Positions 29,527 through 53,076 of a stretch of DNA of 64,000 nt are shown piece after piece. Position 1 is the stretch's first letter. Every line of letters begins with the position of its first letter. The translations under genes were made by a program, and so were the position numbers. The stretch spans positions 24,542 through 88,541 of the forward strand of contig NZ_BLZO01000069.1 in the NCBI RefSeq assembly GCF_014132355.1, given 5' to 3'. The notes below the pieces were generated by a model, which saw nothing but the letters and a program-made list of their open reading frames with translations, ran no database searches and was not told the DNA's origin. This DNA comes from Okeania sp. KiyG1 (GTDB lineage Bacteria; Cyanobacteriota; Cyanobacteriia; Cyanobacteriales; Microcoleaceae).

Positions 29527-29644
29527 GGCGTTGCTGAGGGGCGGGATGAAACTTTTGGCAGAAGGTAAATCCCATGTTTTGTTTTTTATGCTTCCTGTGT
29601 TCGAGAGCCTAAAATTCCCGAACGCACTCTATCTATGCAACGCC
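29527..29644. mobile_element. F3 MITE inserted in satellite module B (second copy)
   Basis: 118 bp, nearly the same as the copy at 28740 and at the same point of its repeat unit, with small differences near the right end (CCCGAACGCACTCTATCTAT). One insertion followed by duplication of a larger block explains both copies better than two insertions. Confidence 0.65.
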
Positions 29645-30490
29645 ATATATATACTCATATAGAGGGGATGTAGCTACTGCTATGCGATCGCTATATTCAC
29701 TTTTCAATCAAATCATCATTCTGTGAAGCTCCAAAAAAACAGCAAGGTATTTCCTCTTGCATCCCCAAAAAAATCGTGATACTATGTAATCATTGGGTGT
29801 TACTCGCCCCTACGCATGACTTTTTATTCAACGCAAAAACAGCATTTCGTTACTGAATACATATAGAAGGAATACTCACATAACCAAAGCAGAGAAAAAT
29901 TATCATCCTGTGAAGCACTAAGAAAAGAAGTGGTGACACCGAAAAATTTTCACCCCATCAACACATCCATACATATACTCATATAAAAGGAATGTAGCTA
30001 CTGCTATGCGATCGCTATTATTCACTTTTCAATCAAATTATCATCCTGTGAAGCTCAAAAAAAAAGCGGCAAGGTATTTCCCCTTGCATCCCCAAAAAAA
30101 TCGTGATACTATGTAATTATTGGGAGTTACTCGCCCCTACGCATGACTTTTTATTCAACGCAAAAACAGCATTTCGTTACTGAATACATATAGAAGGAAT
30201 ACTCACATAACCAAAGCAGAGAAAAATTATCATCCTGTGAAGCACTAAGAAAAGAAGTGGTGACACCGAAAAATTTTCACCCCATCAACATATCCATATA
30301 TTTACTCATATAAAAGGAATGTAGCTACTGCTATGCGATCGCTATTATTCACTTTTCAATCAAATTATCATCCTGTGAAGCTCAAAAAAAAACGGCAAGG
30401 TATTTTCCCTTGCATCCCCAAAAAAATCGTGATAGTATGTAATCATTGGGTGTTGTTCGCCCCTGCACATGACTTTTTATTCAACCAAAG

Positions 30491-33319: not shown

Positions 33320-34090
33320 TTATAAATTTTTGAGTTGTGCATCCTGATTAAAAAATTGTCTACATAAACCATAGGTAATTAATAAACTTGTCACCAAGTT
33401 TGTAAAAGCCAAAAGAAACATAATTAAAATCTGATATGCTACAGCATTCAAAGGATTAACACCAGTTAATAACTGACCAGTAAAAATACCAGGAAGCGTA
33501 ACTATTCCAACTACCATCATTAAATTTAAAGTAGGTATTAATGCAGCACGAACAGCATCTTTTCTATATTTAGCAACTGCCTGTTGAGAAGTAGCTCCTA
33601 AACTTAAATAAGTTTCAATTTCTACTGGACTAGAATTAATTGTACTGACAAGTCTTTCGCCAGCGAGCGCTGCTGTATTCATGGCATTTCCTAATACTAT
33701 TCCTACTAAGGGAATTAAGTATTGAGGTTCGTACCAAGTTTCAGGTTGAATAACTAATAAGTTGGTATAACTGATACTTAAAACTGTACTTGTTAAAATC
33801 GAAACCCAAACTAAAGGTAATAATCGAGGTATTTTTTTACTAATTCTATTCCTAGCAACAACAGAAGCAACTGTTAACATAATAGTAATCATAGCGACCA
33901 CCAACCAAGGTTGTTTATTATCAAATACTATTTCTAATACATAGCCAACAAATATTAACTGCACAATAGTACGAATTGTCGCTATTAATAATTGCCATTC
34001 TAATCCTAATTTTTGCCAAGCTGACAAACCAATAGCTATAGCAATAAGTCCTAAAGCCATAGCTATATCTATAATTGTTAATTGAATCAT
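33320..34090 (-). CDS. fetB: FetB/UPF0014-type ABC transporter permease
   Basis: 256 residues with about seven membrane helices (for example IAMALGLIAIAIGLSAW, LLIATIRTIVQLIFVGYVLE, LVVAMITIMLTVASVVA, ILIMFLLAFTNLVTSLLITY). The family hallmark loop is GNAMNTAALAGERL, followed by YLSLGATSQQAV and KYRKDAVRAALIPTLN. FetB pairs with the ATPase FetA to export iron or other metals and aid oxidative-stress tolerance in E. coli. No fetA is adjacent. A ~338-bp tandem duplication copies its first 78 codons and leader just upstream, so the upstream promoter region exists twice. Confidence 0.85.
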   Translation of the reverse strand: MIQLTIIDIAMALGLIAIAIGLSAWQKLGLEWQLLIATIRTIVQLIFVGYVLEIVFDNKQPWLVVAMITIMLTVASVVARNRISKKIPRLLPLVWVSILTSTVLSISYTNLLVIQPETWYEPQYLIPLVGIVLGNAMNTAALAGERLVSTINSSPVEIETYLSLGATSQQAVAKYRKDAVRAALIPTLNLMMVVGIVTLPGIFTGQLLTGVNPLNAVAYQILIMFLLAFTNLVTSLLITYGLCRQFFNQDAQLKNL

Positions 34091-34182
34091 ATTTGTTACT
34101 TATACCAAATTAATAATAAGTTCCATAGAATAATATTTTAATCAGAGTTGACTGTAGATTAAAATATACAGGTTAATAAATT

Positions 34183-34428
34183 TCATATTTTAGCAACAAC
34201 AGAAGCAACTGTTAACATAACAGTAATCATAGCAACTACTAACCAAGGTTGTTTATAATCGAATACTATTTCTAATACATAGCCAACAAATATTAACTGT
34301 ACAATAGTACGAGTTGTTGCTATTAATAATTGCCATTCTAATCCTAATTTTTGCCAAGCTGACAAACCAATAGCTATAGCAATAAGTCCTAAAGCCATAG
34401 CTATATCTATAATTGTTAATTGAATCAT
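34183..34428 (-). pseudogene. Truncated duplicate of the fetB 5' end
   Basis: 81 residues nearly identical to the start of the adjacent permease (few substitutions, e.g. Asn-to-Tyr in FDNKQP and Ile-to-Val), ending SVVAKI. The unit (about 34192-34525) repeats 33854-34191 at an offset of 338 bp, including the leader and start. The differences show it is not a recent or purely technical duplicate. It could make a short membrane peptide with three helices, but a pseudogene is more likely. Confidence 0.75.
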
Positions 34429-34577
34429 ATTTGTTACTTATACCAAATTAATAATAAGTTCCATAGAATAATATTTTAATCAGAGTTGACTGTAGATTAA
34501 AATATACAGGTTAATAAATTTCATAATTCTGTGCAACTTCACATAAAATTGGTATAAAGTTTAATTTTATATTAGTT

Positions 34578-37865: not shown

Positions 37866-38712
37866 GTGAAATACCACCCCCTTTTTTCAGACGACTTACA
37901 CAAAAACTCTATATATAGTCAAAAAACTATAGTGCCACACTATATATAGCGATTTGCCAGAAAAAGCCAAGGTGAAATACCACCCCTTTTTTCAAATGAC
38001 TTACACAAAAACCCTATATATAGTCAAAAACTATAGTGCCACACTATATATATGATTTGCCAGAAAAAGCCAAGGTGAAATACCACCCCCTTTTTCAGAC
38101 GACTTACACAAAAACTCTATATATAGTCAAAAACTATAGTGCCACACTATATATAGCGATTTGCCAGAAAAAAGCCAAGGTGAAATACCACCCCCTTTTT
38201 TCAGACGACTTACACAAAAACTCTATATATAGTCAAAAAAAACTATAGTGCCACACTATATATAGCGATTTGCCAGAAAAAAGCCAAGGAGAAATACCAC
38301 CTCCTTTTTTCAGATGACTTACACAAAAACTCTATATATAGTCAAAAAAAACTATAGTGCCACACTATATATAGCGATTTGCCAGAAAAAAGCCAAGGAG
38401 AAATACCACCCCCTTTTTTCAAATGACTTACACAAAAACCCTATATATAGTCAAAAACTATAGTACCACACTATATATAGCGATTTGCCAGAAAAAGCCA
38501 AGGAGAAATACCACCCCCTTTTTCAAATGACTTACACAAAAACTCTATATATAGTCAAAAACTATAGTACCACACTATATATAGCGATTTGCCAGAAAAA
38601 GCCAAGGAGAAATACCACCCCTTTTTTCAAATGACTTACACAAAAACCCTATATATAGTAAACAAAAACTATAGTGCCACACTATATATAGCGATTTACC
38701 AGAAAAAAGCTA
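37866..38712. repeat. ~105-bp tandem array, eight units, palindromic core
   Basis: Units begin near 37866, 37972, 38075, 38180, 38289, 38398, 38503 and 38607 (steps of 103-109 bp). Each has GTGAAATACCACCCCCTTTT, GACTTACACAAAAAC, then CTATATATAG, ACTATAGTGCCACACTATATATAG and GCGATTTGCCAGAAAAAGCC. CTATATATAG is a perfect 10-bp palindrome occurring twice per unit. Unit lengths vary mainly in T/A runs. A 70-residue frame (38036-38248) merely translates the repeat. No such array is known to me; function unknown. Confidence 0.8.
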
Positions 38713-44956: not shown

Positions 44957-45504
44957 CTGCCCAATTTATAGAATCCATAGATCGATAATTAGTTATCTAA
45001 TATAGTGGCTTGGAAGAAATTTATAGCTCATTTAATACTAGATTGTAATTGTTTTGCGAGATAAGAGACTGTTTGTAAAAGGAATATTAAATCCAGTCAT
45101 AGGGTAGGTTAGGCGACAATACTTATGTTGACTCACCAAAATCTTAACTATCCGCCGTAACCGACTAATATTAAGCACTCTAGATGTCTTAATCTTTGGT
45201 TTACAAACACTCTCTAACAGGCACAGTCTTCTAAATCTCTTTTAGTTTCATCAAACTAACGTTAATTTAAATAGCTACCTGCAATAATTATAAAGTTTTA
45301 TAACAGAGAAATTATCGATCTTTACAACAATCTATAATACCTCATTTATCATGTTTGCAGTAGTTTCGGAGTTGATGAGGCACACACTTAGAATACTTGA
45401 GGGATAAGGAAATAGAAATTATTATTAAACTGTACCCCACCCATAAAAGTTCTGTAAAAGCTATAAATTTTTTATAAAACTACCATTCAAAATCCTTGGT
45501 CATG
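44957..45504. other. Spacer, no gene
   Basis: 548 bp between two reverse-strand genes. A GC-richer patch at 45100-45190 does not translate into anything recognised. No repeat family was recognised. Confidence 0.35.
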
Positions 45505-46438
45505 TTAATTACTGTAAATTTTTTTTATTTGCCCCGCTATCTTTTTGACTTTATCAATAAATTTTCGCCCTAAACTTTTTTTCCTATCTGTTTTTTGAGG
45601 ATAGTAATTAGGTTTAGCTTCACCCAGATATCGATAATGCTCCCAAATATCCCAATAAGGACACCCTGGTTGAATCCGAATTCCTGCCCAATGTAGATAC
45701 TCTAAAGGTTGATTCACATTTGGGTCTATCAGCTTATCACCTTCTCGATGAAAATGTGATGTACCTGCCCAACTTCCTGGTGCTTTTCCTGGTCTACGAA
45801 CAATATTGAAACGCCTTTTAATTCGCTTCAACATCATATAATTAATAATTGGTTGATCGGAAGTTTTATGAGAGAAATCAAAGTATTCTAGGTGAGCTGC
45901 ACATTCAGCAAATACATCATACAAATCCTGTTCTGAAATTAGACCTTTTTTAGATGCCCACCATCCTCCATTAAAAATATCCTTAAGTTCATCTTGACTA
46001 AAAACTTGATAAATTTCTGGAGTGAATACATTTTTCATTCCGCCTAAATGTTGATAATCAAAACACAAGAAATCATATTCATTTAGATAGTTTAGATTTT
46101 CAATAATTTTATCAAAAACAACAATATCTGTATCTATGTATAAAAATTATCAAATTCTCCAAACCAACAAGCTTGCTTATGAAACTGATTTGGTCTGGCA
46201 AAAAATTATTACCAAAAATTTGTTTTACTTTGTTTGATAATCTTTTAATCAATTCTAAATATTGATAAATTTTGACCCCATAATCTCTCGAAAAACGTTC
46301 TGCGACTGTTTGATAATTATCATCATAGGGAATCAAAATAATTGGTGTATCACTATCATACTTACGGATACTTTTTAATAGAGCAATACCTTGTTCTATC
46401 ATTTTGTTATTTGCAGTGATATATATACCACGAGTCAT
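45505..46438 (-). pseudogene. Glycosyltransferase-like gene (Npun_R2821/R2823 type), frameshifted
   Basis: It begins MTRGIYITANNKMIEQGIAL and follows the intact paralogue at 48060-48992. Near 46200 the zero frame departs (it should read FHKQACWFGEFDNF), and a second slip near 46140 restores the DxD strand YIDTDIVVFDK. From 46068 the frame runs intact to the end (CFDYQHLGGMKNVF, then GGWWASKKG, YLHWAGIRIQPGCPYWDIW, HYRYLGEAKP). Two indels in ~60 bp make it inactive as read. The C-terminus ends KKIAGQIKKIYS. It clearly arose by tandem duplication. Confidence 0.8.
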
Positions 46439-46505
46439 GATATTTTCCTGTGTATACTAATTTCATCAACTTATGCTACACCACCTAAGTCTTACTGAAA
46501 AGTCC

Positions 46506-47285
46506 TCACCGATAATAAAATTCAAAATCTCTTAAAGCCATTATCCTAGTTTTATTAAGACGATAATGATAACCCATTCTCTTTTGTAGTTTATTCCAAA
46601 AAGTTGCTTTTGGTTTACTCCGAGAAGCATCCCAGTGCTGAGTCACTCCAGTAATTTTTTCCCACGCTTCACTATTAATAACCCATCCTACTTTTGCAGC
46701 AGCTAACCCCATTAAACTACCTTCTCCAGCGTGCATTCCTTTTAATTCTGCATACCGAGAAACTTTCCCCCAAGTTTCCAAAAATGCTATTTCCTTACCA
46801 TTATCTCTAAAAATAATAAATAAAGATTCCCCTATCCAACTAGAATTATTAAATGAATCATCAGAAATATTTAGCTTATCTGCCAATTTTTTCAATATTG
46901 GTAAACTAGAAGCTCGATATTTTGAAACGTGTTCTACTAAGTTTTTATGGCGTCCAGTTAACCCAGGTTTCCATTCAATATCTTCTGGTAATGATTCTAA
47001 AATTCTAGTATCGGCATCTATATATATAGCTACTGGAAATAATGATATTGCTTTCTGGCAGAGAAATCTTTTATCGTTATAACAATGTAGAATTCCTTGC
47101 TGATAATGTTTAAAAGCCATTACATTTTTATAGCTACTAAAATCATCAGGTTTCTCTGTATAAATTACCAGTGAAGTTCCTGGAGCATTAGTTTCCAAAT
47201 CTTTAGCTAACTCCTTGGCTATATCGCGATATCTTTGCCCTAGTGCCAAAGTACAAAAACAAAATTTTTTTTGTTCGGCGGTCAT
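46506..47285 (-). CDS. Glycosyltransferase-like protein, GT-A fold
   Basis: 259 residues. The start KFCFCTLALGQRYRDIAKEL is a nucleotide-binding first strand, and the metal-binding DxD lies in PVAIYIDADTRIL (~85-97). Later landmarks are SSWIGESLFIIF, HAGEGSLMGLAAAKVGW and ITGVTQHWD. This order matches small GT8-like/nucleotide-sugar transferases, although the exact family is not recognised. No membrane segment, so probably cytosolic. It lies between two copies of the Npun_R2821-type gene, on the same strand, with 67 bp before the next start. Donor and acceptor unknown. Confidence 0.7.
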   Translation of the reverse strand: MTAEQKKFCFCTLALGQRYRDIAKELAKDLETNAPGTSLVIYTEKPDDFSSYKNVMAFKHYQQGILHCYNDKRFLCQKAISLFPVAIYIDADTRILESLPEDIEWKPGLTGRHKNLVEHVSKYRASSLPILKKLADKLNISDDSFNNSSWIGESLFIIFRDNGKEIAFLETWGKVSRYAELKGMHAGEGSLMGLAAAKVGWVINSEAWEKITGVTQHWDASRSKPKATFWNKLQKRMGYHYRLNKTRIMALRDFEFYYR

Positions 47286-48059
47286 ATTTTCACCTAGAAA
47301 TTTTAACGATAAAAAATGCTGAAAATTATTTGATTTGAAGAAGTGACAAAATTAGGAAATAATTTTGAATATAACAAGGATACTAACTCAAAAATATCTT
47401 GAATAAATCCTAGAATAGAAATTTATATACCAATTCCCATCTCATCTCTGAGTGAGGTACAAAATTTCTTTGTTTGAGGAAGTAATGAGTAGTAAATCTG
47501 GTTCCAGGGAATATAAAATCAACTAACAAAACAGTACTTAAGTAACTTGAAAAATGGTTTATATACCAATTGTTATTAAAAGTAAGGGGCAAAAAAATAT
47601 AGGTTTTAGGAAATAGCTCATCTAGGAAAAGGTAACAGGGAAAAAATACAAGTGTAAATCATGTTTCTAGATAAACTCTATATTTTTAATCTTTCAAGTT
47701 TTTCTAAATCTGAATTATCAATATATCCCTGTTGAAAAAAAATTTTGTGCCTTCTTTATTTAACTTTTTTGATTTACTACTCTATATCTTTAAGGGGAAA
47801 TTTATTTTAGGGATGGTTTTTTTCTGACTCCAAATCATCTGAAATATATTAAAAATTATTCTTCTGTCTTTATGACCAAGAAATAAGGTCTCAAGCTTCC
47901 CCTTTGAAAGGAATAAAAAAGGAATTTTCAGATTTCAACCTTCGCCTTGAGTCGGAAGTACTGTTTCGCTTCGCGACATGAATGCGGAGCATTCTGTAGG
48001 ATACCTCCTCTAAGAGAGGCAACTCCTAGGTCGGAGGCTAACTGATAACTGAAATGACC
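47286..48059. other. Spacer with F4 and F6 repeats
   Basis: F4-like ends (TATACCAATT) occur near 47427 and 47563. An F6 unit spans about 47873-48058 (ACCAAGAAATAAGGTCTCAA ... F8-like ATGCGGAGCATTCTGTAGGA ... CTGATAACTGAAATGACC) and abuts the stop of the next gene. No gene was seen. Confidence 0.45.
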
Positions 48060-48992
48060 CTAACTTTTCTTAATTTGCCGAACTATATTTTTGACTCGAT
48101 CAATAAATTTTTCTCTTGGACTTTTTTCCTTTTCAGTTTTCTGAGGATAGTAAGTAGGTTTAGCTTCGCCCAGATATCGATAATGCTCCCAAATATCCCA
48201 ATAAGGGCATCCTGGTTCAATCCGAAAACCTGCCCAATGTAAATATTGTACGGGTTTACCTACTTTAGGGTCAATCAAGCGATCGCCTTCCTGTTGAAAA
48301 TGGGGACTACCTGCCCAACTTCCGGGACCTTTGCCTTCTGGCCGTCTAACTAGATTCAATCGCCGAGAAATATGTTTTAATACTATATAGTTAAAAATGG
48401 GCTGGTCTGTGGTTTTTTCAGAAAAGTCGAAATACTCGGTATGAGCAGCACATTCGGCAAAGGTTTCATATAGTTCATTTTCTGTAAATAGGTTTTTCTT
48501 TGACGCCCACCACCCACTATTAAATACATCTTTAAGTTGTTCTTCAGTGAAGATTTTATTTTCTAGAACTTTGGATGTAAAGACATTTTTTATTCCACTT
48601 AAATATTGATAGTCGCAACACAGAAAGTCATTATCTTCCAGATATTTGAGATTGTCAGCAATTTTTTCAAAGACAACAATATCAACATCAATATAGAGAA
48701 ATTCATCGAAAGGTCCGAACCAACAAGCTTGTTTTTTTTGTTTGTTAGGAGTATTGAAAAAACCTTGACCAAAAATGTTATATAAATTGTTGCAGAGATT
48801 ATCTACAAATTCTAAATCTGGATAAATTTCTACACCATATTTACTCGTAACTATTTCTTCTACCTGCTGATAATTTTCATCAAAAGGTATCATGATAATT
48901 GGAGTATCAGTGTCATATAATCGGATACTTTTCAGCAGAGCGATCGTATTATCAAGCACTTTATCATTGGCGACAATATAAATTCCTTTCAT
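48060..48992 (-). CDS. Npun_R2821/Npun_R2823-family glycosyltransferase-like protein
   Basis: 310 residues. It begins MKGIYIVANDKVLDNTIALL, a GT-A-type first strand and helix. The metal motif is FLYIDVDIVVFEK (~104-116), and the later GWWASKKNLF, TTDQPIFNYIVLK and PGSWAGSPHF resemble acceptor-site blocks. It ends YLHWAGFRIEPGCPYWDIWEHYRYL and a basic tail. The family name is recalled from related cyanobacterial proteins. Donor and acceptor unknown. Three paralogues stand in the locus (45505 broken, this one, 50305). The upstream spacer is an array of relics of such genes. Confidence 0.78.
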   Translation of the reverse strand: MKGIYIVANDKVLDNTIALLKSIRLYDTDTPIIMIPFDENYQQVEEIVTSKYGVEIYPDLEFVDNLCNNLYNIFGQGFFNTPNKQKKQACWFGPFDEFLYIDVDIVVFEKIADNLKYLEDNDFLCCDYQYLSGIKNVFTSKVLENKIFTEEQLKDVFNSGWWASKKNLFTENELYETFAECAAHTEYFDFSEKTTDQPIFNYIVLKHISRRLNLVRRPEGKGPGSWAGSPHFQQEGDRLIDPKVGKPVQYLHWAGFRIEPGCPYWDIWEHYRYLGEAKPTYYPQKTEKEKSPREKFIDRVKNIVRQIKKS

Positions 48993-50304
48993 GATTTTTT
49001 CCTTAGTTATTTCTCTCCAATTTTTGGCAGATTTTAGTGATTATATTTACTGGGAAATTCTCTGATTTTTATTTTCCTACAAATTTTGATTTTTTGGGGA
49101 AAGAATCATCAAAAATTCCTTTCATATTGTTTATCTGGATTTTTACCTAGTTTTTGGCAAATTTTAGTGATTATATTTACTGCCAGATTATCGAATTTTA
49201 GTCTCCCTATAAATTTGGTTTGTTCGGGAAATCATCATCAGAAATTGAAGACTTTTCCACAAATGGATAGTTTGAGCGATCGCCCAGTAGTTGACGACCA
49301 TATAAATGCTTTTTATCTTTTTTTCCTTAGTTATTTCTCTCCAATTTTTGGCAGATTTTCATCATTATATTTACTGGCAGATTCTCAAATTTTAACTAAC
49401 CAGTATATTTTAGTAATTTTCTGAAATAAATTATCAGAAATATCAGACTTTTCTAAAAATGGATTGCTTGAGCGGTTGCCCAATAGTTAGCAATAATATA
49501 AATGCCTTTCATCTTTTTTCCTTAGCTATTTTAACTCTGTTTTTGGCAGATTTTAGTCATTACATTTACTGGCGGATTATCGGATTCTAGTTCCCCTGTA
49601 TATTTTAGTGATTTTCGGGAATCAATTATCAGAAATTGAACATCCACAAATGGATAATTTTAGCGATCGCCCTGTAGTTTACGACAACATAAATAGATGC
49701 TTTTTATCTTTTTTTCCTTAGTTATTTCTCTCCAATTTTTGGCAGATTTTCATCATTATATTTACTGGCATATTCTCAAATTTTAACTAACCAGTAAATT
49801 TTAGTAATTTTCGGGAATAAATCATCAGAAATTGAACAGTTTTCCACAAATGGATAGTTTGAGCATTCCCCCTGTAGTTAGCAATAATATAAATGCCTTT
49901 CGTCTTTTTCCCTTAGCTATTTTAATCCTGTTTTTGGCAGATTTTAGTCATTACATTTACTGGCGGATTATCGGATTCTAGTTGCCCTGTATATTTTAGC
50001 GATTTTCGGGAAATCATCATCAGAAATTTAACATTCACAAATGGATAATTTTAGCGATCGCCCTGTAGTTTACGACAACATAAATAGATGCTTTTTATCT
50101 TTTTTTTCCTTAGTTATTTCTCTCCATTTTTTGGCAGATTTCAATCATTATATTTACTGGCATATTTTCAAATTTTAACTAACCAGTGAATTTGAGTAAT
50201 TTTCGGGAATAAATTATCAGAAATTGAACAGTTTTCCACAAATGGATAGTTTGACCGTCTCCCTGTTTCTTATCTACCATATAAATTTATTTTATCTTTT
50301 TTAT
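48993..50304 (-). repeat. Satellite built from glycosyltransferase gene ends (~195-bp units, ~390-bp dimers)
   Basis: On the reverse strand each unit has a gene end, a short spacer with AAGGAAAAA, and a gene start. At 49921-50003 the reverse frame reads KYTGQLESDNPPVNVMTKIC then stop, against KFTGKPEPYNPPVNIMTKIF of the intact gene at 50305. At 49512 it reads MKGIYIIAN, against MKGIYIVAN of the gene at 48992. CTTAG(T/C)TATTT markers recur near 49000, 49325, 49520, 49720, 49912, 50110 and 50300, and two subtypes alternate. The coding middles are lost. It lies exactly between two paralogous genes. Confidence 0.75.
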
Positions 50305-51309
50305 TTAACTATTTAAACCCAGTTTTTTGAAGATTTTAGTCATTATGTTTACTGGCGGATTATAAGGTTCTGGTTTGCCAGTAAATTTTGGTCTTTTATC
50401 TGGTTCATGGAGATAACGATAGTGGAGAAAAATATCTCGATAAGGAAAATCTAAATTTTCTCCCTGACAAAGCCTAGCAAACCTTTTAGAAGAAACTCCA
50501 ATATAATGAAGATATGTCAGTCTTTCTCCTTTATCATATAATACATTGTCCCTTTCTTCAAAATGAGGCGATGTTACAGAACAACCTGTTCTTTTTTCTG
50601 GTGGTAAATCAAGACCAAAATTATAAACAGGAATATCCAATCGCATTTTCATATAGTTGAGTAAAGATTGGTTTGGAGCGGATGTATATAAAACTTCTCC
50701 TTCTCCAGAGTTAAGCTTTTCTACTAGAAACTGTCTTTGAGTTTCCGAGAATAAACCTCTTTTTCCTGCATAAAATCCCGCACAAAAAATTTCAGACTTA
50801 ATCCGTGACTCTGGAAAAACATCAAACAGTTTAGACGACTCTAAATTAAAAATATGGGAGGGGTCTTTATACTGAAAATCATAGACAACAAAATCATCCT
50901 TATCCAACTGTTCAAAAATATATTCAACAGAATTAAGTACCAGAATATCTGCATCAAAATACATAAACTTTTCAAAAGGAGCTTGAGAGTCAAAGCCACA
51001 ATATCTACGATTCATGCCAATTCGATTTACTCCCTTAATCCCTTTTTCTGCCCACATACTCAAAGCATTTGGATGACCTTTCCAAGCTTGGTAAGAAAAT
51101 TCTTCCCAGGGGGCAAATATTTCTGGATTGTCTAAAAATTGGACATTATTTCGCTTTTCTATATCAGCTTGGACTTTTCCCGTGCGATCGTCATAAGCAA
51201 TAACACAAACTGGAGTATCAGTACCAACATTGACCTCAATACTATTGAGTAGAGCTACCAGTTGATCGAAGACAACATCATTTGCTACAGTGTATATACC
51301 GTTAGTCAT
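50305..51309 (-). CDS. Npun_R2821/Npun_R2823-type glycosyltransferase-like protein
   Basis: 334 residues. It starts MTNGIYTVANDVVFDQLVAL, parallel to the 48060 paralogue but more diverged. The DxD is in FMYFDADILVLN (~118-129), and further blocks are EIFCAGFYAGKRGLF and TSAPNQSLLNYMKMRLD. It ends LTYLHYIGVS, then FPYRDIFLHYRYLHEPDKRP and KFTGKPEPYNPPVNIMTKIF. The last ~25 codons are the source of the relics in the next 1.3 kb. Likely a cytosolic sugar transferase for the glycan locus; the sugar is unknown. Divergent from a sulfotransferase gene 60 bp away. Confidence 0.75.
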   Translation of the reverse strand: MTNGIYTVANDVVFDQLVALLNSIEVNVGTDTPVCVIAYDDRTGKVQADIEKRNNVQFLDNPEIFAPWEEFSYQAWKGHPNALSMWAEKGIKGVNRIGMNRRYCGFDSQAPFEKFMYFDADILVLNSVEYIFEQLDKDDFVVYDFQYKDPSHIFNLESSKLFDVFPESRIKSEIFCAGFYAGKRGLFSETQRQFLVEKLNSGEGEVLYTSAPNQSLLNYMKMRLDIPVYNFGLDLPPEKRTGCSVTSPHFEERDNVLYDKGERLTYLHYIGVSSKRFARLCQGENLDFPYRDIFLHYRYLHEPDKRPKFTGKPEPYNPPVNIMTKIFKKLGLNS

Positions 51310-51368
51310 AGAAGTTAAATTGAATCACTGCTTTTGATTATATCAAGTTCAACACTCATCACAAACTA

Positions 51369-52321
51369 TTGTTATTTATTTTTGTGTTTATAGGAATAAT
51401 TATTTATGCAGAAAAAGTCATATTTATCATGTCAAGTGGGCATTCTGGTTCTAGTCTTTTATCACTAATTTTAGGAAGTCATCCAGACTGTTTTTCCGCA
51501 GGTGAATTAGTCGGTCTTCCCAATCGTTATCGTCAGCAAAAACCTATTGATTGTGTGAATAAGACATCTGAATTTTGGGAAAAAACTTTTGGAGAAAAAG
51601 GACTATATGAGTTGGCTAGTGTTCTAGGAAATACTCGTTTAAATAAGAATATTCCTTTAAAGTTTGAGAAAAAATTAGACAAATATTCAACAAAGATGAG
51701 ATTTTTAATCCTTATTCTTTTATGTTTTCCAAGTTAGAGAATAAAAGCGTTATTATTGATGCTAGTAAAGCTTATCCTTGGATTGGAGAAAAAATTCAAG
51801 CTGAAGAATTTACATCAGGAAAAGTAGAAGCATATTTAATTCATTTAGTTCGTGATGGTAGAGCTGTTGTTAACTCTTACTCCAGAAAATATCCTCATTG
51901 GGATATGGCTAAGGTAGCAACAGAATGGGTAGAAAAAAGTAAACTAAGGAATGATTTTTTTGAAAAATTTAATCCTGAGAAAAGAATTGAGATTGCTTAT
52001 GAAAAATTAGCGAGTAATCCTCATCAAACTGTTGAAAGGATTTGTGATTTTGTAGGTATAAATTTTGTTCCTTCCATGATAGAGTATTGGCAATACGATC
52101 ATTATGATATTTCTGGTAATGAAGGTACTTATTCTCTAATTCGTCGCTATCGAGAGCAGGTAATAGAAAATAAAGTAGAGAAAATCAATGACGATTACTA
52201 TAGCAATGTAGATATAGCTATAAAGTTAGATTTACGCTGGCAAAGAGAGCTAGCACCAGAAAAACTAGAAATATTTGAGCGTATTGCCGGAGAAGCTAAC
52301 AAACCTTTTGAGTGGAATTAA
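51369..52321 (+). pseudogene. Sulfotransferase, frameshifted
   Basis: The first frame carries the PAPS loop MSSGHSGSSLLSLILGSHPD and AGELVGLPNRY. Near 51690 it departs into KMRFLILILLCFPS and stops, while the overlapping frame continues as DEIFNPYSFMFSKLENKSV, IDASKAYPWIGEKI, LIHLVRDGRAVVNSYSRKYP (3'-phosphate site) and ends KLEIFERIAGEANKPFEWN. It is a tandem paralogue of 53121-54050 (KLEVFQRIAGEFNKPFEWN). The start is also unclear: the ATG at 51404 is out of frame with the PAPS-loop frame. Inactive as read. Confidence 0.8.
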
Positions 52322-52389
52322 AAGTCAAAATATTTTTTGTTACTTAAACAATAATAATTAAATAACCTCATAACTAAGAAACAATCAAA

Positions 52390-53076
52390 ATGCTAATATC
52401 TCACAAACATAAATTTATTTTTGTTCATGTACAAAAAACAGCAGGACAAAGTGTCACAGAGACTTTAAAAAAAAATGTACCTGACTTAGAAAAACTTGTT
52501 ACTCAGCATAAACATGGTTCTGCCATAACAGGTAGAGATATATTGGGAGTTGATAAATGGAATGAATACTATAAATTTGCTTTTGTGAGAAATCCTTGGG
52601 ATAGATTAGTATCTTGGTACAGCATGATTTTAGGAATTTGTTTAGACGAAAAAATGAGCCAAAATTACTCCAATTATAATTTATGGCACAAAGTTGTTAG
52701 AAACTACAGAAAATACCGATATCTTAATCGTCCACATAACAGTAAATTTTATTCTTATGTCTTGAAAAACTGCAATAGCTTTGAAGATTTTATCAAAAAT
52801 AGTCATAGAGACAATATGAAAAATATGAGGAATCAATTAGACTATTTAGTAGATGAAGAGGGCAATATAATAGTAGATTTTATTGGTAAGTTTGAATCTT
52901 TAGGGGATGATTTTAATCAACTTAAGAGTAACTTAAATTTGCCACATATGGAATTACCTCATGTTACACATAAATCCAAACACAGGAATTATCAAGAATA
53001 TTATAATGATGAAATTCGTGAAATAGTTCAAGAAAGATATCATCAAGATATTAAGTATTTTAATTACAATTTTTAA
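52390..53076 (+). CDS. Sulfotransferase family 2 (Sulfotransfer_2-like)
   Basis: 228 residues. The opening MLISHKHKFIFVHVQKTAGQ carries the 5'-phosphosulfate loop FVHVQKTAGQSV. The 3'-phosphate site is YKFAFVRNPWDRLVSWYSM. The C-terminal part has YLVDEEGNIIVDFIGKFESL and HVTHKSKHRNYQEYY, typical of the chondroitin/HNK-1-type family (PF03567). It transfers sulfate from PAPS to a carbohydrate. It differs in family from its neighbours on both sides, so the locus combines at least two sulfotransferase families. It is separated by 44 bp from the next gene, a probable operon. Confidence 0.85.
   Translation: MLISHKHKFIFVHVQKTAGQSVTETLKKNVPDLEKLVTQHKHGSAITGRDILGVDKWNEYYKFAFVRNPWDRLVSWYSMILGICLDEKMSQNYSNYNLWHKVVRNYRKYRYLNRPHNSKFYSYVLKNCNSFEDFIKNSHRDNMKNMRNQLDYLVDEEGNIIVDFIGKFESLGDDFNQLKSNLNLPHMELPHVTHKSKHRNYQEYYNDEIREIVQERYHQDIKYFNYNF

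Follow-up and report, generated by a model that had tools for sequence, protein, structure and literature searches.

Tandem copies of a gene junction form a probable minisatellite between two sugar-transferase-like genes of Okeania

The spacer between two neighboring genes, A and B, is occupied by a tandem array of ~195-bp units which, to judge from their sequence, are copies of the junction at which A ends and B begins. We consider it highly probable that this array is a minisatellite that arose when ~195 bp spanning the A-B operon junction were duplicated in tandem, and that the copies were subsequently multiplied. The DNA analyzed, hereafter the window, was a stretch of 64,000 nt from a genome of 10.98 Mb (G000), and the features of the locus are collected in Table 1. 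The genus, which we take to be Okeania, was represented by five further genomes, presumably Okeania sp. SIO3B5 (G001), SIO2B3 (G002), O. hirsuta PAB10Feb10-1 (G003), SIO2C9 (G004), and SIO1I7 (G005). Other relatives were, by their presumed names, MO_207.B10 (G012), Trichodesmium MAG_R03 (G029) and MAG_R02 (G026), and jk18x7bins.61 (G009), the last three shortened below to R03, R02, and jk18.

Table 1. Genes A and B and the copies of their junction in the window
Feature	Position	Strand	Remarks
Gene A, upstream gene, Npun_R2821/R2822 family, 334 aa	50305..51309	-	NF045582.1, 409 bits (cut-off 250)
Gene B, downstream gene, Npun_R2821/R2822 family, 310 aa	48060..48992	-	NF045582.1, 334 bits (cut-off 250)
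A-B spacer with putative tandem copies of the A-B junction	48993..50304	-	1,312 nt, stop of A to ATG of B
First copy: A's own 3' end, then decayed copy of B's start	50213..50393	-	unit profile match
Unit u1, type a	50016..50210	-	
Unit u2, type b (LESDNPPVNVMTKI; TKGIYIIAN)	49821..50013	-	
Unit u3, type a	49625..49818	-	
Unit u4, type b (LESDNPPVNVMTKI; MKGIYIIAN, ATG at 49512)	49430..49622	-	
Unit u5, type a	49234..49427	-	
Unit u6, shortened (copy spacing 130)	49110..49230	-	
Last copy: decayed A end, then B's own start	48919..49100	-	

Both flanking genes scored above the curated cut-off of NF045582, which places them in the Npun_R2821/Npun_R2822 family, and they were ~29% identical to each other. 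The Pfam family Mannosyl_trans3 was passed by B (27.9 bits; cut-off 22), with A below it (13.8). Described here as sugar-transferase-like on sequence similarity, the two genes have several sulfotransferase-like genes around them. At 51369-52321 of the window two ORFs overlap in different frames, the second matching Pfam sulfotransferase, and the pair may be a sulfotransferase gene split by a frameshift. Downstream of B (45505-46438) lies a third paralogue of the A/B family, broken by an internal TGA and TAA; in O. hirsuta, SIO2C9, and SIO3B5 it is almost whole, with one TAA.

The array was detected at 49139-50363 with a period of 195 (6.2 copies, 74% matches) and a period of 391 (3.1 copies, 87%). 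Two unit types of ~195 bp each alternate, giving a higher-order period of ~391, in agreement with a sequence-only reading of this DNA that had described ~195-bp units of two types and a true period of ~390 bp. The units stand head to tail within the spacer, as those of minisatellites do. A 93-nt segment from the end of A recurs in eight copies spaced 194-197 nt, the last of which, beside B, is spaced 130. In gene direction, a unit runs from the C-terminal coding end of A through a stop and a short spacer with AAGGA to a start resembling that of B, which the best copy spells MKGIYI, and ~52 nt later the next A end follows. The sequence-only reading had assigned fixed motifs to every unit. An A-type end is indeed present in the units, but the literal LESDNPPVNVMTKI was found in two; the stop placed directly after MTKI exists, but five codons later in these two units and eight codons later in most others; and the B-type start, given as MKGIYIIAN throughout, is often decayed and keeps its literal form with an ATG in one unit (minus strand), a second reading TKGIYIIAN. 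The short unit beside B reads MKGIFDD, and the other unit type has LKFEN[ML]PVNIM with ATA replacing ATG. Start codons across the units were mostly decayed, and the stretch from stop through ribosome-binding site to start was recognizable in most units.

Next, we compared the units with an intact junction. The A and B orthologues of MO_207.B10 (93% and 90% identical) are separated by 10 nt and free of an array, and all five whole units tested matched this junction at z 16-37, with none of 500 shuffles as good. In alignment, the eight copies of the array were also collinear with the array-free junction of O. hirsuta. Unit content corresponds to ~33 codons from the end of A, ~10 nt of spacer, and ~26 codons from the start of B. 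The two parts were scored separately in u1, u2, and u4, the split being misplaced in u3 and u5, which have whole-unit scores only. In that order, the A-type C-terminus matched the 3' end of A at z 14.4, 23.4, and 26.4 (0 of 500 dinucleotide shuffles each) and the B-type start matched the start of B at z 3.4, 9.5, and 6.3 (3, 0, and 0 of 500 shuffles). Similarity to the flanking gene ends thus exceeded that of shuffles on both sides, and the earlier description of a satellite built from gene ends was borne out. The start part showed no excess against the start of A (z 1.0, 0.0, and -0.6) or against that of A-prime, another A paralogue (z -0.6, -1.5, and -1.2), and scored somewhat against the start of the downstream paralogue C (z 0.4, 3.4, and 2.6).

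The last 52 nt of the unit were compared with nt 25-76 of B in fixed register, in which 24-30 of 52 positions matched in 12 of the 13 testable units; the other nine of the 22 units were out of register and omitted. Against the B gene of the window, 11 of the 13 units beat all 880 other registers, while for the remaining two, 2 and 384 registers did as well or better; against that of MO_207.B10, six scored above every other register, and for 11 no more than one register did as well or better, with the proviso that units share ancestry and the trials are therefore not independent. This ~52-nt tail was seen as the start of B by the fixed register alone, not by local alignment or profile. Of nine B starts, a tail profile matched three, for which 1, 3, and 9 of 300 shuffles did equally well; the other six gave no match. 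An origin of the tail elsewhere in A or B was rejected. Local alignment in six genomes pointed to nt 705-748 of B (705-753 in MO_207.B10), where 2 to 29 of 300 shuffles were as good for the tail alone, values that are not independent since the B genes are homologous; by eye, this match runs through the GGCGATCGCT word. In the aligned units no middle sequence of A or B was seen, and the seam, identical in position in all of them, is too diverged for microhomology to show. With its A-type end, its B-type start and tail, and its collinearity with an intact junction, the unit is a copy of the A-B junction.

The array was searched for in 60 genomes (own, genus, family, and order), of which 12, the window's own included, had a match. 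It lies between A and B in five of the six genus genomes (G000, G001, G002, G004, and G005); in the sixth, O. hirsuta, the array is absent and A-prime adjoins B. A unit profile built from the units of the window's genome matched eight times there, six times in SIO3B5, 11 times in SIO2B3, and eight times each in SIO2C9 and SIO1I7, counting the end of A and the start of B, and once each, at the plain junction, in O. hirsuta and MO_207.B10. Copy number thus differs between related genomes, as the sequence-only reading had it and as in a VNTR at the species level, with counts that come from five species-level draft assemblies, in which repeats may be collapsed and the exact number of units misjudged. 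An assembly artefact as the source of the array was ruled out by orthologous, diverged units in five separate assemblies.

Outside the genus, matches in seven genomes were short (26-124 nt); the unit profile, applied to four of these genomes, matched 1, 1, 1, and 2 times, and G028, G035, and G057 were compared by blastn only. A-prime, 53% identical to A, stands directly before B in O. hirsuta and SIO2F4 (12-nt spacer and 4-nt overlap). The spacers before B in array-free relatives measured 10, 12, and 12 nt, with one 4-nt overlap; those of HE19RPO, OSCR, Microseira, and Baaleninema were left unused, their B coordinates being off the ATG. In R03, R02, and jk18 an A-type C-terminal remnant without a body lies directly before B (L020 204-304; L021, L022). 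An A gene is found ~490 nt upstream of the remnant in R03, and A-prime ~1 kb upstream in R02, with a coding-looking stretch between (by eye); in jk18 the remaining 198 nt of contig held no match to A. Ends left behind by lost genes therefore seem to occur at the site before B without amplification. SIO3B5 has, ~1.9 kb upstream of its intact A, an isolated fragment comprising the first 136 codons of an A copy (94% identical to A; L018 5926-6333). An apparent doubled A end in Hydrocoleum was set aside, as it sits at N in the contig.

The relative age of the array was apparent from a tree of 44 copies, in which 13 of 41 inner branches were well supported; seven of the 51 copies (from SIO3I5, Hydrocoleum, SIO2F4, TrichR02, and TrichR03) had been excluded. 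One group (98/94) united the A-adjacent copies of the five genomes and another (100/98, 13 rows) their type-a core units, all five being represented; copies next to B clustered with junction sequences from MO_207.B10, jk18, and O. hirsuta. Because these groups span five species, the unit types are older than the split of the species, and copy number has changed since. Between the window's genome and SIO1I7, SIO2C9, and SIO2B3, the Jukes-Cantor (JC) divergence of the array was 0.122, 0.118, and 0.162, near the synonymous rate of A and B (dS 0.119-0.215; four-fold-site JC 0.067-0.169). The values for SIO3B5 (JC 0.30-0.34) were unused, since its unit number differs and non-orthologous units were probably paired. 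Among the five genomes, dN of B was 0.012-0.022 against a dS of 0.136-0.239, so that B is under purifying selection despite its separation from A.

Several possible functions of the array were examined. Coding units were rejected in view of stops in every reverse frame; an ORF of 112 aa on the plus strand (49086-49424) spans fewer than two units. An array of structured RNA was unsupported: RNAalifold gave no consensus pair for 22 units and one plain junction, a two-unit stretch folded no better than its shuffles, 60 of 100 of which did as well (z 0.34), and Rfam had no match at gathering scores in 45000-53000. Promoter-like sites (11 vs. 7.3 +/- 3.2 in shuffles) and terminator-like sites (1 vs. 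0.8) were in no clear excess in the array; an array of promoters or terminators was rejected on these counts, and the suggestion that the units serve as small leader-terminator modules found no backing in either the sites or RNA structure. For the suggested role as a recombination substrate, no sign emerged that new paralogues are made or swapped through the array. The array is probably a neutral, operon-splitting minisatellite and most likely has no function.

Selection might nevertheless keep the array as a regulator of B, through uncoupling from A or through repeated promoters or ribosome-binding sites. Its presence in five of six genus genomes, the purifying selection on B in five genomes, and the recognizable stop-to-start stretch of most units speak for such a role, but divergence close to the synonymous rate, variable copy number, mostly decayed start codons, the lack of a clear promoter excess, and that of RNA structure make it extremely unlikely. 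It is very doubtful, too, that the 3' end of A holds promoter or translation signals of B and that the array is a multiplied upstream module freeing B from A; signals of this kind would account for A-end remnants being kept before B in lineages without the body of A.

Other routes would yield much the same units. The sequence-only reading had envisaged full tandem paralogues between A and B that lost their ~300-codon middles, the joined ends then being amplified, and the start and end motifs of each unit, the bodiless A-type ends before B in R03, R02, and jk18, and the 136-codon A fragment upstream of A in SIO3B5 all agree with it. Part of that proposal survives, in that the ends in these three Trichodesmium-like relatives indicate that body loss with the end kept does seem to happen at this site. 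For the array itself, however, no loss is needed, the unit being collinear with the intact A-B junction; a start from B and an end from A, in junction order, do not fit a deletion inside one paralogue, the same seam recurs in all aligned units, middle sequence is never seen, and more events are required. We regard this route as highly improbable. Duplication of the whole pair (A-B-A-B), with a deletion joining the start of the first B to the end of the second A and amplification of the hybrid, predicts an identical anatomy, and more than one A-type gene lies near B in some relatives; yet the arrangement was not seen in the loci examined, and two events are invoked where one suffices, so that this course, too, appears very improbable.

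Under the preferred reading of a duplicated junction, we infer the mechanism and the order of steps as follows. One tandem duplication across the junction (the end of A, the ~10-nt spacer with its ribosome-binding site, and the start of B) would have kept A and B whole and placed between them a non-coding copy made of an end and a start. The unit would then have multiplied by slippage or unequal crossing-over, as single units at first, which diverged into two types, and later as ~391-bp pairs, and copy number would keep changing in separate species. The array parts a tight operon by 1.1-1.9 kb, so that B must be expressed by read-through or from a promoter of its own. This looks like ordinary repeat growth and no new kind of system, and similar duplications were found at other gene ends of the same genome.

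Long tandem arrays are frequent in the host genome: 35 non-overlapping arrays with periods of 60-500 were found in a sample of 438,798 bp (contig C58, the window, and seven other stretches). The placement control excluded the 11 arrays inside ORFs. Six of the 24 outside ORFs, the A-B array included, touched an end of an ORF 150 aa or longer, against 14.2 (10-18) under random placement, where one of 1000 placements had six or fewer. Arrays at gene ends were thus rarer than chance, as expected if most such arrays are harmful. At 33853-34525 of the window, two 338-bp tandem copies (328 of 338 positions identical) with the first 238 nt of an ORF (33320-34090, minus strand) are a young duplication of a gene start, and at C58:142673-143023 (L092) two identical 175-bp copies include the final 88 nt of an ORF of 901 aa. 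Other intergenic arrays lie at 37868-38707 (109 bp x 7.9) and 29643-30489 (327 bp x 2.6) of the window. For Trichodesmium, a relative, 40% non-coding DNA is reported (PMC4649490).

The A-B array offers a clear case of the birth of a bacterial satellite: the junction of origin, relatives lacking the array, and an array shared by several species are all visible, and the flanking genes provide a yardstick for dating its growth. Repeats amounting to 1.1-1.9 kb split a tight operon whose downstream gene remains under selection. The case also cautions that bodiless gene ends need not be the remains of deleted genes. Neither this array nor any gene-junction satellite was described in the titles and abstract beginnings surveyed, few subscription papers among them.

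Among known systems, eukaryotic higher-order repeats such as alpha satellite consist of diverged monomers re-amplified as a multi-unit block. The monomers of the A-B array were likewise re-amplified as a block, from 195 to 391 bp, but the array is small, single-locus, bacterial, and derived from gene ends, with no centromere role. MIRUs are a dispersed family whose small ORFs overlap the stop and start of flanking genes. A dispersed element was rejected for the A-B array: unlike MIRUs, it had a single match across the window's genome, with 40 of 106 first-look candidates scored, and its starts are decayed. The 77-bp repeats at senX3-regX3 of mycobacteria (MIRU-VNTR locus 580) are likewise variable tandem repeats inside an operon junction, two in BCG Pasteur and three in BCG Danish (PMC9392950). 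With intergenic minisatellites and VNTRs of bacteria the A-B array shares tandem spacer units whose copy number varies between related genomes; in contrast to them, its units are long and strongly diverged, follow a two-unit higher-order period, and come from the ends of the flanking genes.
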